A DNA stretch of 64,000 bases from Capsulimonas corticalis (GTDB taxonomy: Bacteria; Armatimonadota; Armatimonadia; Armatimonadales; Capsulimonadaceae), in assembly GCF_003574315.2 (NCBI RefSeq), contig NZ_AP025739.1, positions 2,294,001-2,358,000 of the forward strand, in the 5' to 3' direction. Position 1 is the stretch's first letter. Each line of letters opens with the position of its first letter. Position numbers and translations under genes: made by a program. Below are positions 18,269-64,000 of the stretch, in pieces. The notes under the pieces were generated by a model, which was not told the origin of the DNA, ran no database searches, and saw only the letters and a list, made by a program, of their open reading frames with translations.

Positions 18269-19048
18269 TTAATCGGGGAACTTGCGGCCCGCTCCAAGCT
18301 GCGGGGCGCCGTCGGCGGAGTATTCGTAGCCGGGGAACGTCGCGCTTGGGAACTGCTTATTCGCCGAAGTGCTCTTCGATTGATCCCACAGCGCCGCCTT
18401 GACGTGCCCGTCGGCGTACAGGAAGTTCGCGAGGTGGTCGAAGTGCGGCCAACCGGCGGCAAAACCGACCGTGTCCAGCGATTGGACATCCGAGCAATAG
18501 CCCCAGTCCTGATAGATGTGGCCGCCGCCGAAGGCGCACCAGCCTCGCTCGACCAGTTCAATGGTTTTGCTTGGCGAGGGAACGGCCGCGAGGGAAGCGC
18601 CGACGCTCGATTGCTGGTAGTCGATCAAGTGCGTCGCCACGGCGTAAGATCGCTTGACGTTGCCGCCAACGCCGGGAAGGAGCGTCAAAGGCGGCAGCGC
18701 GTCGTCGGGGCATCCCAGGACGGCGGTGCTTTTCACATATGGCTGGATCGCGACATCCCAGGTGACCGGTGTTCCCGCCGAATTGAGGTAGGGAGGATTC
18801 GCCCATGCGTCGACGCTGGTGAAGGCGTTGTTGCCGCTGGGCCACAGCTCGTCGTTATCCTGAATGTACTGCATAAAGCCGATGCCGAGCTGCTTCATAT
18901 TGGACGAACAGCTGGTCTGGCGCGCTTTTTCGCGGGCCTGGGCGAAGACGGGGAAGAGAATGGCGGCGAGGATCGCGATGATAGCGATGACTACGAGTAG
19001 TTCGATCAGTGTGAAGCCGCGCAGCTTCCGTGAGTTTAACAATTTCAT
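18269..19048 (-). CDS. DUF1559-type prepilin (pseudopilin)
   Basis: 259 residues. The N-terminus has the type IV prepilin signal ([18 protein letters not shown]), with cleavage predicted after Gly and methylation of Phe. [18 protein letters not shown] follows, the hallmark of the DUF1559 family, and near the C-terminus the family H-x-G-x-[11 protein letters not shown] motif. CAGGAGA is placed well before the ATG. Homologues are highly multicopy in Planctomycetota and Armatimonadota and are thought to be displayed on the cell surface. It is divergent from an AraC regulator and followed by the GH27 gene. Confidence 0.93.
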
Positions 19049-19099: not shown

Positions 19100-19148
19100 T
19101 GCAAATCTGCAAATAAGACTTGATAATTCTACTACGGCGTGCTACGAT
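19100..19148 (+). promoter_or_regulatory. Promoter and direct repeats upstream of the AraC regulator
   Basis: TTGATA (19120-19125) and TACGAT (19143-19148) have a 17-base spacer, placing transcription start at about the ATG (19154), so the mRNA may be leaderless; no ribosome-binding site is visible. TGCAAAT occurs twice at 19100-19106 and 19108-19114, an 8-base direct repeat that could be a regulator half-site pair. Confidence 0.4.
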
Positions 19149-19153
19149 ACGCA

Positions 19154-19921
19154 ATGCACGCAAATGGAAGTTTATTGCACCAGGCTCCAAGCCCTTTTCG
19201 AAACGCCGGCGTCGCCATCGCGGCGATCGGGCAGGATTTCCCGTTTCACCAGGATCAATTCTGGGAGGTCATGTACCTGCGCAGCGGCCATATCACCTGC
19301 CAGCAGGGAGCGGAGCGCTTCGCGATGCACCCCGGCATGATCATTATTCACCCGCCGCGCGTGACGCATGCGGACTTCGCGACGACGGCGTATCTCACCT
19401 ACTATCTCTGGGTGGACTCCGATATGGCCGCCACGTGGCCGCGCTTGTGCTATGACGACGAGCATAAGAGCCTGGAGCGCGTCTGCCAGTCCGTTCTCCA
19501 GGAATGGGGCGCCCGAAACCCTGACCGAAACCGGATGCTGAGCTTGCTCTACGACCAGATGAATCTGCTGCTGACGCGGGAAAACAGCGTCAAATCCTCC
19601 GCCGGAGAAGCCGTCGTGGCGGCGGCGGAACAGGTAATGGAGGCCAACTACCGGGAAAAGCTGACCGTGGGGGAGGTCGCCCGGCGGATCGGGGCGTCTG
19701 CGTCCTCGCTGCACGCGCACTTCGCGCGTCTGCGCGGGCAGACGCCGATGGAGCGCCTCCAGGAGATCCGGCTCCGTCACGCCCTCGCCCAGTTGCACCA
19801 CACTACGCTGACCCTCGATTCCATCGCCACTCTCTGCGGCTACCATTCGGCCAGCCATCTCAGCCGCCATGTCAAGTCGGTCACCGGGGAAAGTCCGGGG
19901 CGGCTGCGCGTGCGCGAGTAA
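19154..19921 (+). CDS. AraC-family transcriptional regulator
   Basis: 255 residues from ATG 19154; an upstream GTG at 19139 is less likely because it overlaps the -10 box. The N-terminal cupin (FWEVMYLRSGHITCQQGAERF, HPGMIIIHPPRVTHAD) is followed by two helix-turn-helices (LTVGEVARRIGASASSLHAHF; TLDSIATLCGYHSASHLSRHF-like with TGESPGRLR). Its position, divergent from the prepilin and GH27 genes, suggests it activates them in response to a sugar. The architecture repeats at 61.2-64 kb. Confidence 0.9.
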   Translation: MHANGSLLHQAPSPFRNAGVAIAAIGQDFPFHQDQFWEVMYLRSGHITCQQGAERFAMHPGMIIIHPPRVTHADFATTAYLTYYLWVDSDMAATWPRLCYDDEHKSLERVCQSVLQEWGARNPDRNRMLSLLYDQMNLLLTRENSVKSSAGEAVVAAAEQVMEANYREKLTVGEVARRIGASASSLHAHFARLRGQTPMERLQEIRLRHALAQLHHTTLTLDSIATLCGYHSASHLSRHVKSVTGESPGRLRVRE

Positions 19922-54809: not shown

Positions 54810-55637
54810 ATGGCGAACTCAAACGACAATCTGCTCGGCAACTATCTTAAGAACCGACGCGCGAAGCTGGACCCATCGGCGTTCGGCTTTACCTCGACGC
54901 GGCGACGAACGCCCGGATTGCGGCGCGAGGAAGTCGCCCAGCGCGCCAACGTCAGCGCGACCTGGTACACATGGCTCGAACAAGGACGGGGCGGGACGCC
55001 CTCGACCGATGTCCTGGACGGAATCGCAAGCGCTCTCGCGCTGACGGCCGACGAGCGCGAGCATCTCTTCCTCCTCGCGCAGCACCGGCCGCCCGAAGTG
55101 CGCTACCAGGAGGCCGAAGGCGTGACGCCGCAACTACAGCGCGTGCTCGATTCGATGGAGTTCAGCCCGGCTATTGTCAGAACGGTGGCGTGGGACGTTA
55201 TTGCCTGGAACCACGCCGCAATGGCGGTGCTGGCCGACTATGAGACAATCCCGCCGGAGCAGCGCAACATCCTGCGCCTCTTCTTCCGCAATCCGCGCGT
55301 CCGCAACAAGACGGTCGGCTGGGAAAAAGAAGCCCGCGCGGTCGTGGCGGCGTTCCGCGCGGACGCCGCCCGATCCGGAGTGTCAGAACGCATTGAGGCC
55401 CTGATCGACGAAATGATCCAGTCCAGCCCCGAATTCCAGGCGATCTGGAGCGAGCATGACGTTCAAGCTTACGGGGAGGGCGCCAAACACTTCCACCATT
55501 CGACGGCGGGCCCCCTCACACTCGAGTACTCAAACTTCAAGGTCGATGGACGCCCCGACCTCGGCCTCGTAATCTTCACTGCGGCGACTCCGGCGGATGC
55601 GGAGTGCATCCGGTCAATTATCCGAGGCCGAGTTTGA
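54810..55637 (+). CDS. XRE-family regulator with MmyB-like ligand-binding domain
   Basis: 275 residues from ATG 54810; an ATG at 54789 would add seven residues but overlaps the palindrome. The helix-turn-helix (LGNYLKNRRAKLDP, RRRTPGLRREEVAQRANVSA, TWYTWLEQGR) is the GLRREE type. The C-terminal domain (about 105-270: SPAIVRTVAWDVIAWNHAAM, NILRLFFRNPRVR) is the MmyB-like PAS-type fold found in regulators that sense small, often fatty or aromatic, ligands. The gene is divergent from the SDR pair and ends just before the 30-bp repeat array. Confidence 0.9.
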   Translation: MANSNDNLLGNYLKNRRAKLDPSAFGFTSTRRRTPGLRREEVAQRANVSATWYTWLEQGRGGTPSTDVLDGIASALALTADEREHLFLLAQHRPPEVRYQEAEGVTPQLQRVLDSMEFSPAIVRTVAWDVIAWNHAAMAVLADYETIPPEQRNILRLFFRNPRVRNKTVGWEKEARAVVAAFRADAARSGVSERIEALIDEMIQSSPEFQAIWSEHDVQAYGEGAKHFHHSTAGPLTLEYSNFKVDGRPDLGLVIFTAATPADAECIRSIIRGRV

Positions 55638-55670
55638 GTTGCGATCCAAAGCTCCCGGTTATGAAACCCG

Positions 55671-56390
55671 TGCCTGGGAGGGCTTCGCCCTAACCGTCCG
55701 TGCCTGGGAGGGCTTCGCCCTAACCGTCCGTGCCTGGGAGGGCTTCGCCCTAACCGTCCGTGCCTGGGAGGGCTTCGCCCTAACCGTCCGTGCCTGGGAG
55801 GGCTTCGCCCTAACCGTCCGTGCCTGGGAGGGCTTCGCCCTAACCGTCCGTGCCTGGGAGGGCTTCGCCCTAACCGTCCGTGCCTGGGAGGGCTTCGCCC
55901 TAACCGTCCGTGCCTGGGAGGGCTTCGCCCTAACCGTCCGTGCCTGGGAGGGCTTCGCCCTAACCGTCCGTGCCTGGGAGGGCTTCGCCCTAACCGTCCG
56001 TGCCTGGGAGGGCTTCGCCCTAACCGTCCGTGCCTGGGAGGGCTTCGCCCTAACCGTCCGTGCCTGGGAGGGCTTCGCCCTAACCGTCCGTGCCTGGGAG
56101 GGCTTCGCCCTAACCGTCCGTGCCTGGGAGGGCTTCGCCCTAACCGTCCGTGCCTGGGAGGGCTTCGCCCTAACCGTCCGTGCCTGGGAGGGCTTCGCCC
56201 TAACCGTCCGTGCCTGGGAGGGCTTCGCCCTAACCGTCCGTGCCTGGGAGGGCTTCGCCCTAACCGTCCGTGCCTGGGAGGGCTTCGCCCTAACCGTCCG
56301 TGCCTGGGAGGGCTTCGCCCTAACCGTCCGTGCCGGGGAGGGCTTCGCCCTAACCGTCCGTGCCGGGGAGGGCTTCGCCCTAACCGTCCG
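55671..56390. repeat. 24-copy tandem repeat of 30 bp (minisatellite)
   Basis: 24 units of exactly 30 bp lie in perfect register. Each unit begins TGCCTGGGAG, contains the hairpin AGGGCTTCGCCCT and ends TAACCGTCCG. Units 1-22 are identical; units 23 and 24 have GCCGGGG for GCCTGGG. Because 30 is a multiple of 3, frames on both strands stay open and encode decapeptide repeats, but there is no sign of a real gene. The array is preceded by CCCGGTTATGAAACCCG and followed by TGCCGGACGG, showing that it grew from the same element as 8123-8282. Confidence 0.95.
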
Positions 56391-56521
56391 TGCCGGACGG
56401 ACAAAATAGGCTATTGTCGACGGGTTTTCATTTGTTTGTCCAGCACGGACAATTAGCCGAAGGCTTCCCAGACGTGGATTTTACATCCGCGTTTCCTCTT
56501 TTCGAGGCCGCCTCCCAAACA

Positions 56522-61248: not shown

Positions 61249-62052
61249 CTACTCCAGCAGCCCCACTTTCGGCCGCTCCTCTTCCCGTAGTTTGCGCGGT
61301 GACCGTCCTAGATAGTGCCGGACGAATTTATTGAAGATCTGCGTGTCGGTGATCCCGATGCTTGCGGCGACGGCTTTGATCGGCAGCGGGGAATAGATCA
61401 AGAGGTGCTTGGCCTGGGCCACGCGGCGGTGCTGGATGTACTCCAGGGGCGTGCAGCCCTGCGCGGCCCGAAAGAGTCGTGTGAAGTGGTTGTGGGAGAT
61501 CTCCTGGTCTTCGGCCAGGCGCTGGACGCTGAGCGGCTCGTGCAGGTTGGAGTCGATGTAGATCAAGGCGCGCTGGATGACGGCGGGCGTCACCTTCGGC
61601 GGCGCTTCGGAGCTGGAAACGTCCGCCATCCGCCATAGAATATCCCAGAGGCGGACGCCGGAGCGCAGGCGGTTGATCGGCCAGAATCGCACCGCCTCGC
61701 GGAAGCTTTCGACCATCGGCTGAAAATCGTCCTTCAAGTCCACCATCGCGGGAACCCGGTAGATCGAGCCGCCCGCCGCCATGGAGAAGTGGGCGTAGTA
61801 GTGCGGCGAGCGGCCGAAGAAGTGATAGAACGTCGCGGTTCCCGGCGGCGTAATCCCAACATACCCCGGGCGAATCGGGAGAACCTGCCCGCCCACTTCA
61901 AGCTCCGCTTCATAGGCGTAAAAGTGGATACACCAGAGGTCGGGAAGGATGAAGTTCTCTTCTTTCTCGCGGCCGTGCGTGCTCTCCCCGATCTGTACGA
62001 TGACGGGAGAAGACTCCAAAGACATATTCCAGCGCAGCTCTTGCCATTCCAT
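61249..62052 (-). CDS. AraC-family transcriptional regulator
   Basis: 267 residues from ATG 62052; a GTG at 62070 would add six. The cupin sensor (DLWCIHFYAYEAELEVGGQV, RPGYVGITPPGTATFYHFFG) is followed by the double helix-turn-helix (LSVQRLAEDQEISHNHFTRLF; PIKAVAASIGITDTQIFNKFV with LGRSPRKLRE). It is divergent from a prepilin gene, and its start codon region lies in the conserved element that also precedes the fucosidase promoter. It very likely controls both. Confidence 0.9.
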   Translation of the reverse strand: MEWQELRWNMSLESSPVIVQIGESTHGREKEENFILPDLWCIHFYAYEAELEVGGQVLPIRPGYVGITPPGTATFYHFFGRSPHYYAHFSMAAGGSIYRVPAMVDLKDDFQPMVESFREAVRFWPINRLRSGVRLWDILWRMADVSSSEAPPKVTPAVIQRALIYIDSNLHEPLSVQRLAEDQEISHNHFTRLFRAAQGCTPLEYIQHRRVAQAKHLLIYSPLPIKAVAASIGITDTQIFNKFVRHYLGRSPRKLREEERPKVGLLE

Positions 62053-62119
62053 GGTGAGAATTATCCACAAAAAATGGTTAATTCGGCCAATTGCCCCCGG
62101 ATCGGCAATGCCTTATAAT
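62053..62119 (+). promoter_or_regulatory. Prepilin promoter with conserved upstream element (copy 1)
   Basis: GGTGAGAATTATCCACAAAA begins at 62053; TTATCCACA (62061-62069) is identical to the 9-mer in copy 2 and to the DnaA-box consensus. -35 TTGCCC (62091-62096) and -10 TATAAT (62114-62119) have a 17-base spacer. The motif-to-(-35) distance is 30 bases. The prepilin ATG is at 62212, leaving a leader of about 85 bases with AAAGGAG upstream of the start. Confidence 0.75.
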
Positions 62120-62211
62120 GGAACTCAAGCAAACGTCGTCACGGTTTATGTAACCGGTTTCATTATTCGGCGACGCCATTTGCGTTCGAAGTCATCAAAG
62201 GAGTACTATCA

Positions 62212-63087
62212 ATGTCGCACCATTATTCCGTAAAGTCCACACATAAAGGCTTCACTCTGATCGAGCTGCTCGTTGTTATCGCTATCATTGCGATTCTCGC
62301 CGCTATTCTCTTCCCGGTGTTCGCCAAGGCGCGCGAGAAGGCGCGTCAGATCTCCTGTACGTCCAACGAGAAGCAGCTTGGCCTTGGCTTCCTTCAATAT
62401 CAGCAGGACAATGACGAGCAGATGCCCTATCCCCCGGCGTCCGCGGGCGGTTTCGGGCAGGGCTGGGCAGGATTGATCTACCCGTATGTCAAGAGCGCCG
62501 GCGTCTTCGCCTGCCCGGATGATCCCACGCAGCCCGTCGCCGGCCGCTATAAAGAGTCGTACGCCATGAACGCCAACATGTGGCCGAAGGGCTCTACGTA
62601 TCATGGGACCGGAACCAGCGCGATCGCTTCGCAGAGCAGCCCGGCGGCCACGGTTCTGCTGTTTGAAGTCCAGAATATCTCGTCCACGGGCGACGGCGCC
62701 TTTGGGGTCGATGTCACGAACCCAATCGAAGGGCAGTCGCCCGCCGGCACTGGCAGCATCAGCGGTTCGTCCGGCTCCACGGACGATGCGCGCCCGAACA
62801 GCAACTACAACCATGGCGTCTACGCCACCGGGAACATCGGCGGCTACACGCTGATCAACGCCACCGGCAATGGCCTGGGCATCCACACCGACGGCGCGAA
62901 CTACCTGGCGTCGGACGGCCATGTTAAGTGGCTGCGTCCAAGCGCGGTGAGCGGCGGCATGCCGGCGGCAAGCGAAAGCGCGGTGGAAGTCCACGACGCC
63001 GGGGACAATGTCGGTACGGCGGCCGGCACCGGAAGCTTGACCCAGCAGAGCGGCGCCAAGGTCGCGATGACCTTCAGCCCGATCTAG
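62212..63087 (+). CDS. DUF1559-type prepilin (pseudopilin)
   Basis: 291 residues. Prepilin signal [18 protein letters not shown] and [19 protein letters not shown] define the DUF1559 family, and the C-terminal motif reads [19 protein letters not shown] Gly/Ser/Thr-rich loop (about 165-190) interrupts the globular part. AAAGGAG is placed before the ATG. It shares its promoter architecture with the downstream fucosidase and is divergent from the AraC regulator, so its display is expected to be induced together with fucose-releasing activity. Confidence 0.93.
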
Positions 63088-63126
63088 CGCCGGGCAGGCG
63101 CGCTGAGCGCCGATGTTCGACGAAGG

Positions 63127-63161
63127 CCTTGCGAATCCGAGATGGCGTCTCATTCGCAAGG
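63127..63161 (+). terminator. Stem-loop after the prepilin gene
   Basis: CCTTGCGAAT (63127-63136) and ATTCGCAAGG (63152-63161) form a perfect 10-bp stem around an inner GAGA/TCTC pair, followed by TCTTTGG. It should reduce read-through into the fucosidase promoter. Confidence 0.55.
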
Positions 63162-63174
63162 TCTTTGGCGGGAC

Positions 63175-63240
63175 GGTGAGATTTATCCACAAAAACGGTG
63201 AGTCTCGTCAATTGCGGTTTTTCGTGGGCGCCCTTATAAT
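63175..63240 (+). promoter_or_regulatory. Fucosidase promoter with conserved upstream element (copy 2)
   Basis: GGTGAGATTTATCCACAAAA begins at 63175, the same block as at 62053 with one substitution. TTATCCACA is at 63183-63191. -35 TTGCGG (63212-63217) and -10 TATAAT (63235-63240) have a 17-base spacer, with a motif-to-(-35) distance of 29 bases. CAATTGC precedes the spacer in both copies. Confidence 0.75.
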
Positions 63241-63327
63241 AGAGACATCAAAACAGTACTGGCGGACAGTGTGATCGTCGTGTCTTTTGCGATCATTGCG
63301 ATTTTTCTGTCCCAGGCGAAAAGGCAA

Positions 63328-64000
63328 GTGGATCCATTGTTAACGAAGCATTTTTGGAATACGGCGGCGGCGAGCCTGCTGCTGATGGGCGCCGCGCTGG
63401 CTGGACCCGCGCAGGCGCAGGGACCGGCCCAGACCGATCCGCACATGCAGTGGTGGCGCGACGCCAGGTTCGGCATGTTCATCCATTGGGGGCCGATCAG
63501 CGTGATGGGGCAGGAGATCAGCTGGAGCCGGTCCCCAGGCCCTGGCGGCGCGAACCCTGGCGGTATTCCGGCGGCCACGTACGACAACCTCTACAAGCAG
63601 TTTAATCCGACGAAGTTTGACGCCAAGGCGATTGTCGCGATGGCGAAGGCGGCGGGGATGAAGTATATCGTCTTCACCTGCAAGCACCACGACGGCTTCT
63701 GCGAATTCGATAGCAAGCTCACGGATTACAAGATCACGAATCCCGAGTCGCCGTACGACAAAGACATCGTCAAGCAGCTCGCCGACGCCACTCACGCGGC
63801 CGGCCTGCACTGGTGCGTTTACTACTCGCAGCCGGACTATCACAATCCCGACTTTCATGTGAACCAGGCAGCGTACGACCAATACTTCCACCGCCAGGTT
63901 CACGAGCTTTTGACGGATTACGGCAAAGTCGACCTGATCTGGTTCGATGGTCTGGGCGGAACGGCGCAGGATTGGGACGCCGAGAATCTCTTCCGCGAGA
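63328..64000 (+). CDS. Secreted GH29 alpha-L-fucosidase, truncated by window edge
   Basis: At least 224 residues from GTG 63328; in-frame GTGs further upstream (63271, 63280) are possible because the frame is open there. A signal-like segment (ASLLLMGAALAGPAQAQ) precedes the GH29 barrel: WWRDARFGMFIHWG, MKYIVFTCKHHDGFCEFDS, HWCVYYSQPDYHNP and LIWFDGLGG with nucleophile Asp207. GH29 enzymes remove alpha-L-fucose from plant, algal or mucin glycans. The C-terminus continues past the window. It is regulated through the copy 2 element shared with the prepilin. Confidence 0.9.
   Translation, partial: MDPLLTKHFWNTAAASLLLMGAALAGPAQAQGPAQTDPHMQWWRDARFGMFIHWGPISVMGQEISWSRSPGPGGANPGGIPAATYDNLYKQFNPTKFDAKAIVAMAKAAGMKYIVFTCKHHDGFCEFDSKLTDYKITNPESPYDKDIVKQLADATHAAGLHWCVYYSQPDYHNPDFHVNQAAYDQYFHRQVHELLTDYGKVDLIWFDGLGGTAQDWDAENLFRE

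Follow-up and report, generated by a model that had tools for sequence, protein, structure and literature searches.

The locus lies at the downstream end of the window, a 64,000-nucleotide stretch (G000:C1:2294001-2358000) of the one-contig, 7.65 Mb genome of Capsulimonas corticalis, and comprises genes for an AraC-family regulator, a DUF1559 prepilin and a GH29 alpha-L-fucosidase. The regulator (267 aa) is encoded divergently on the minus strand at 61249..62052, with matches to HTH_18 (1.2e-17) and HTH_AraC (1.5e-12). On the plus strand, the gene at 62212..63087 encodes a protein in which an N-terminal methylation motif is followed by DUF1559, placing it in the PF07596 (2.9e-10) and PF07963 (N_methyl; 2.3e-9) families; it also matches the TIGR02532 prepilin motif, and the specific pilin models listed in NCBIfam all scored below cut-off. 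The fucosidase frame, also on the plus strand, is cut by the window end (63271..64000; full ORF, L004:3271-5007). This putative enzyme carries the GH29 catalytic family domain (PF01120, 1.7e-82) and an F5/8 type C domain (PF00754, 1.4e-15), and it probably starts at the in-frame TTG at 63337, from which point onward it aligns with the corresponding protein of a second Capsulimonas species. A PhyH-family gene (PF05721, 3.7e-24) follows 25 bp past the fucosidase gene, and sugar ABC transporter genes of the arabinose/ribose type lie about 220 bp beyond it. These domain matches agree with the identities given to the regulator, prepilin and fucosidase in a first-pass annotation of the same DNA. A defence-family search of the AraC and prepilin proteins gave no match.

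Promoters with the same layout precede the prepilin and fucosidase genes. P1 (62091..62119, plus strand; TTGCCC at 62091, a 17-nt spacer and TATAAT at 62114-62119) was identified by a consensus scan and has 10 of 12 consensus matches, which alone is not significant because shuffles contain 0.8 such sites on average. P2 (63212..63240, plus strand; TTGCGG at 63212, 17 nt, TATAAT at 63235-63240) was absent from that scan's list. Between the prepilin gene and P2 lies a strong stem-loop and possible terminator (63121..63167, plus strand; -29 kcal/mol, z -4.9), as low as which 0 of 200 shuffles folded and which was not among the sites of a simple terminator scan. As it separates the prepilin gene from P2, the fucosidase gene probably needs its own copy of the upstream element.

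That element contains a 21-mer, GGTGAGAATTATCCACAAAAA at 62053-62073 and GGTGAGATTTATCCACAAAAA at 63175-63195, the copies being 1122 bp apart and one base different from each other. None of 100 dinucleotide shuffles of the window contained a 21-mer match at up to 3 mismatches. Across the genome, GGTGAGANTTATCCACAAAAA (62053, 63175) has two exact sites, those before the prepilin and GH29 genes beside the AraC gene. A third site with 3 mismatches (L005 4848) lies within an open frame without a promoter and is attributed to chance.

Comparison of five promoters from three genomes shows that the element is longer than the 21-mer and consists of two direct-repeat halves, with the consensus TTATCCA-N7/8-GGTKANT-N5-CAATTG preceded by GGTGA-like bases. 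The second half-site, GGTKANT-N5-CAATTG, overlaps a weak -35 through its CAATTG in all five. Copy 1 (62053..62093, plus strand) pairs half-site GGTGAGAATTATCCACA with half-site GGTTAATTCGGCCAATTG 23 bp on, and copy 2 (63175..63214, plus strand) pairs GGTGAGATTTATCCACA with GGTGAGTCTCGTCAATTG 22 bp on, the latter member of each pair overlapping the -35. Among the five promoters, TTG comprises the only common -35 bases, the spacer is invariably 17, and the -10 is TATAAT, or CATAAT in the third genome. The same-layout pair 1.1 kb apart was correctly placed in the annotation, and the 29-30 bases given there are counted from the initial T of TTATCC up to the -35. Its description of CAATTGC as a promoter part holds insofar as the motif overlaps the -35, with the refinement that it also belongs to the second half of the element; its claim that copy 1 overlaps the AraC start gives way to abutment on the ATG (62052).

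A matrix scan of 20 partly overlapping genome stretches (363,603 bases; matches below 9 bits left out) scored the two real sites at 60.6 and 56.7 bits and the best other site at 16.6. A relaxed composite search with a single fixed spacing returned 26 matches, against 17 for a reversed control. One of these, at 3448446 near a DUF1559 gene of the isomerase locus discussed below, lacks the CAATTG half and is attributed to chance.

Elsewhere in the window, a further divergent DUF1559-AraC pair occupies 18269-19048 (minus strand) and 19139-19921 (plus strand). A long repeat array at 55469-56409 has frames open on both strands, the plus-strand frame holding EGFALTV 24 times.

Conservation of the element beside a divergent AraC gene

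We compared the C. corticalis genome (G000) with those of a second Capsulimonas species (G001), another genus of the same family (G003) and more distant bacteria. At a threshold of E 1e-15, AraC homologues occur in 24 of 151 genomes, and close orthologues outside the own genome are confined to G001 (88% identity) and G003 (66%), the next relative standing near 44%. A composite pattern, built from the same five sites and searched with zero mismatches allowed, had exactly five matches in 41 genomes, all beside an orthologous divergent AraC gene (at least 66% identity). The exact pattern was absent from the other 38 genomes, 9 of which encode a less similar AraC homologue. A copy adjoins the AraC start codon in each of the three element-bearing genomes.

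G001 keeps both copies. Copy 1 (37/41 bases identical between G000 and G001) precedes an orthologous DUF1559 gene (62%), and copy 2 (37/40) lies before a second DUF1559 gene (49% over 249 aa), behind which comes an orthologous GH29 gene (76%). The element at P2 forms a conserved island between these two genomes, with only 17/60 bases identical to its left and 26/60 past the -10. The near identity of the 21-mers would fit copy 2 being a functionless duplicate of copy 1 that arose recently, by chance or with a duplicated segment, but the flanks of the two copies are unrelated (12/40 bases identical left of the element, 17/40 past the -10), copy 2 is the conserved island just described, and the half-site spacing (23 bp at P1, as also in G003, against 22 bp at P2) and the second half-site differ consistently between the copies in G000 and G001 alike. 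We consider such a duplication hardly credible.

The same comparison bears on TTATCCACA, which equals the DnaA-box consensus and has 40 genome occurrences, compared with 14 of its reversed control. Were it a DnaA box here, both promoters could answer to DnaA or the cell cycle. The conserved stretch, however, far exceeds 9 bases and reaches into GGTGA and the second half-site; the G003 site reads TTATCCATT, so that the DnaA box is lost while the rest is kept; and the composite pattern in its exact form accompanies a single AraC orthologue across the 41 genomes. Control by DnaA is very improbable, and we rejected TTATCCACA as a DnaA box on the ground that it is not kept across relatives.

The AraC protein has a C-terminal double HTH (PF12833 and PF00165 above cut-off), and by phmmer its DNA-binding domain matches the solved AraC-family domains of AdpA, MarA, SoxS and AraC. 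Its best NCBIfam match is to E. coli AraC over residues 141-260 (E 3e-15), far under cut-off. Residues 1-165 gave no Pfam match, and an AlphaFold model from a three-row alignment was poor (mean pLDDT 52.8, and below 50 over residues 1-154), with no usable N-terminal domain.

The site has the layout of a class II, araI-like operator in five of five promoters, with direct-repeat halves 22-23 bp apart and the downstream half overlapping the -35. Against araI1, taken from the araI stretch that separates araB from araC in MG1655, the upstream halves agree at 9-10 of 17 positions in a register that we chose ourselves (random values, 0.003 for at least 10 and 0.013 for at least 9). The downstream halves fit poorly (6-7 of 17), and the sites of two SHN-type relatives reach 7 and 4 of 17. 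Among 30 homologous AraC loci, scored with a leave-one-out matrix and with each region shuffled for significance, a GGTGA..ACCAC-like upstream site accompanies 12 of 15 homologues with an SHN-type first recognition helix and 2 of 15 others, in a set whose sites we selected by eye from these very sequences, whose members include several close relatives and are not all independent, and in which the best match at L031 differs from the selected site. The association supports, but does not prove, the pairing of AraC protein and element. Several non-SHN members carry, by eye, a (C/G)CGATTTTTTACCAC-like variant site, as if site and recognition helix changed together.

The genome encodes at least 73 AraC-type and at least 56 LacI-type matches, and a regulator other than the neighbouring AraC protein might bind the element. 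We judge this unlikely, given that each of the three genomes with a close orthologue also has the element, that the exact pattern is missing from the other 38, that the element abuts the AraC start in each of the three, and that related AraC genes have related sites nearby.

The probable inducing sugar and the proposed mechanism

In G003, the single element copy precedes no prepilin gene; it stands before a different GH29 gene, whose product is 33% identical to that of G000, followed by genes for an FGGY kinase, a distant L-fucose-isomerase relative and a LutA/HdrB-like iron-sulphur protein, the LutA label being our own reading. The link of the element to a fucosidase is more widespread than its link to a prepilin. 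Among solved structures, the closest relatives of the kinase are L-fuculose kinase (1.5e-83, the top match) and L-rhamnulose kinase (1.7e-82), which are about equal, and in NCBIfam it scores 412 bits as a rhamnulokinase against 136 as a fuculokinase, both under cut-off. The isomerase-like protein has two Pfam matches to L-fucose isomerase, both below cut-off (E 4e-6 and 7e-6), and gave no match in NCBIfam or among solved structures. We take the operon to be a 6-deoxyhexose operon with a fucosidase, most likely serving fucose.

The G000 orthologue of the isomerase-like protein (72%) is encoded 1.1 Mb from the locus, beside a different AraC gene of its own and a gene of the class II aldolase family; neither a genome search with the 21-mer nor the matrix scan found an element copy there. 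This counts against a simple fucose regulon. The three genes occupy L061 7964-11401, in what is apparently a separate deoxysugar locus.

The weak isomerase match, and a kinase as close to rhamnulose as to fuculose kinases, mean that a different 6-deoxyhexose could be the sugar; these two points slightly lower our confidence in the preferred explanation and raise that in another sugar. The regulator would then be correctly identified, and prepilin and fucosidase would belong to a regulon for another sugar, such as rhamnose, or for a glycan from which the fucosidase does no more than remove side chains. The placement of the isomerase-like gene outside the G000 regulon and the arabinose/ribose type of the downstream ABC transporter both lean this way, as do the more distant AraC relatives. 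At 27 such loci (L010-L036), 15 of the 20 divergent genes scanned encode PhyH dioxygenases, 2 encode GH29 enzymes (L016 and L021, from two further genomes, which speaks for the GH29 link) and 1 each a GH2 enzyme, a DUF1559 protein and a dockerin protein; with PhyH so frequent, the ancestral role of this AraC subfamily may not be fucose. Against a different inducer stand the GH29 partner in all three genomes with the element, even though the G003 enzyme is so divergent, and the L-fuculose kinase that heads the solved relatives of the G003 kinase. An inducer other than fucose is a serious possibility, roughly one chance in three by our estimate, and fucose remains our preferred reading.

From the element, promoters and genes as they stand in the sequence, and from their conservation and co-occurrence, we infer a mechanism of binding, activation and autoregulation that we regard as probable. 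The element would be the operator of the divergent AraC-family protein, whose ligand is most likely L-fucose or a fucoside. Bound to its ligand and seated on both half-sites, the protein would recruit RNA polymerase to P1, directing synthesis of the DUF1559 prepilin, and would likewise activate P2 and with it the GH29 fucosidase and probably the PhyH gene behind. Copy 1 lies directly against the AraC start codon, so the protein, when bound there, may also limit expression of the AraC gene itself. The prepilin would thereby be made whenever the fucosidase is made, possibly serving substrate handling at the cell surface through binding, uptake or holding of the enzyme.

The interpretation in the first-pass annotation is supported in part. 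The small regulon suggested there takes the shape of a two-site local regulon with AraC-type tandem half-sites overlapping the -35 and with the divergent AraC protein as likely binder (element and close AraC orthologue co-occurring in 3 of 41 genomes). Its regulatory reasoning is well supported by the comparative evidence. The fucose link that it drew gains from the G003 element lying before GH29, kinase and isomerase-relative genes and is weakened by the G000 isomerase-like locus without an element; surface display of the prepilin, as it envisaged, we put forward as a hypothesis.

DUF1559 genes and glycosidase operators across the genome

The genome has at least 152 DUF1559 matches, with 150 of 336 candidates scored. 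With the 149 DUF1559 genes listed, 21 of 56 LacI genes have one within 1.5 kb, whereas 2000 circular shifts averaged 3.0 such genes and reached 10 at most. For AraC genes the count is 13 of 73, compared with a mean of 4.0; the maximum of 1000 shifts equals the observed 13, so the association of AraC with DUF1559 is weaker than that of LacI.

Several of these loci contain operator-like sequences shared with glycosidase genes. A LacI-type palindrome, TGTTATCGATAACA, is present at three genome places (L056 (G000:C1:4845000-4859000) 6831 and 9425; L083 4834), preceding a DUF1559 gene behind a LacI gene, a GH38 gene and a GH92 gene, an apparent alpha-mannoside regulon with a prepilin. The palindrome AGGWAGACATGTCTWCCT, with up to 2 mismatches, occurs at four places, against one for its reversed control, and its sites precede a DUF1559 gene, two GH26-like genes and one resembling apiosidase genes; the second DUF1559 gene of the same locus has the 14-base core of the palindrome in front of it (sites or core at L076 5353, 9621 and 15348, and L082 5317 and 6723), and a divergent open frame that resembles a transposase stands 119 bp from one of the sites. 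By local comparison, CCCAAACGGTTGGG or a two-change variant precedes a DUF1559 gene and a GH13 gene by a LacI gene. Finally, TCACAATYGCACTCAAAAGAT occurs at exactly two genome places at up to 3 mismatches (L047 9599 and 16357), about 300 bp before a DUF1559 start and about 140 bp before the ATG of a GH130 gene. Each site adjoins one of two AraC paralogues that are mutually 74% identical, and duplication of an AraC gene together with its site could explain the pair. Also in L047, TCACAATYGC repeats about 22 bp apart stand directly before another -35 ahead of a DUF1559 gene.

A clear shared operator emerged in 3 of the 21 LacI loci with a DUF1559 gene and in 2 of the 13 corresponding AraC loci (L004 and L046-L057 scanned), and dispersed-repeat, 18-mer and palindrome searches revealed none in the remainder. 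The dispersed-repeat search of 17 loci (L004 and L046-L061; at most 9 rows per locus, with rows that had prepilin-coding seeds or less than 50% A+T dropped) placed repeats at promoter positions only in L004, L047 and L056. When 18-mers from upstream of 53 prepilin genes were searched for, 48 matches fell in the loci of origin and 15 in one random other locus each; repetitive DNA in L076 and the 64-kb length of the window inflate these counts, which served for candidate picking only. Palindromes recurred in the 21 LacI-DUF1559 loci for 3 of 28 prepilins as perfect 14-mers (0.05 expected), 3 as 16-mers (0.2), 6 under relaxed settings (2.0) and 12 under the loosest (4.65), and for 5 in a single-strand version (1.6 expected); L066 and L081 are weak cases.

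This pairing of prepilin and glycosidase hints that DUF1559 proteins help the cell feed on specific sugars. We tentatively suggest, at well under even odds, that many glycan regulons of Capsulimonas-like Armatimonadota hold their own DUF1559 prepilin under a glycosidase operator, governed by AraC proteins for GH29 and GH130 and by LacI proteins for GH38/GH92, GH26-like/apiosidase and GH13 enzymes, such that the family would comprise substrate-specific surface pseudopilins. If true, the DUF1559 set would be a feeding apparatus, the counterpart of the SusC/D pairs of Bacteroidota. Shared operators tying single DUF1559 genes to single glycosidases would provide a concrete, testable assignment, each such paralogue being induced by one glycan class and helping its use, together with sets of regulators, operators and candidate inducers for a phylum with little genetics.

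Comparison with known systems

AraC-type control of a sugar operon is already known; what is unusual here is a DUF1559 prepilin within the regulon, a combination that this genome repeats for other glycosidases under operators of unrelated sequence. We found no report of a DUF1559-glycosidase regulon in the portion of the open-licence literature covered, and one may be published all the same. The half-sites of E. coli araI are spaced 21 bp apart. Here the spacing is 22-23 bp, the half-site sequence is another, and there are two promoters 1.1 kb apart, one of them for a prepilin. Common to both systems, as far as excerpts of PMC7408454 describe araBAD and the araI1/I2 sites at P-BAD, are a divergent AraC-family gene, a sugar operon as target, and direct-repeat halves about two helical turns apart that partly overlap the -35. 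CdhR of Pseudomonas aeruginosa, in the parts of PMC5806209 that treat it, is an AraC-family regulator divergent from its target operon that has direct repeats and inhibits its own expression; it resembles our proposal in genomic layout and in autoregulation, which is only proposed here, and differs as a class I activator upstream of the promoter that serves carnitine catabolism and involves no prepilin.

DUF1559, also termed SBP_bac_10, is among the largest paralogous families of Planctomycetes, and there too it runs to dozens of copies (74 in Rhodopirellula baltica and 68 in Planctopirus limnophila), yet excerpts of that literature call it unknown or solute-binding, unlike the reading proposed here. 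In R. baltica, according to the same kind of excerpts, some DUF1559 genes go up in salt and cold shock and others down in heat shock, pointing to stress rather than glycans. A further parallel comes from Ruminococcus flavefaciens 007, a Firmicute with a type IV pilin, for which excerpts of PMC3672088 report proteomics and describe no common operator; as in our model, a pilin-domain protein and a glycoside hydrolase belong to the same polysaccharide response, the type IV pilin-like protein and GH48 both being raised on Avicel.
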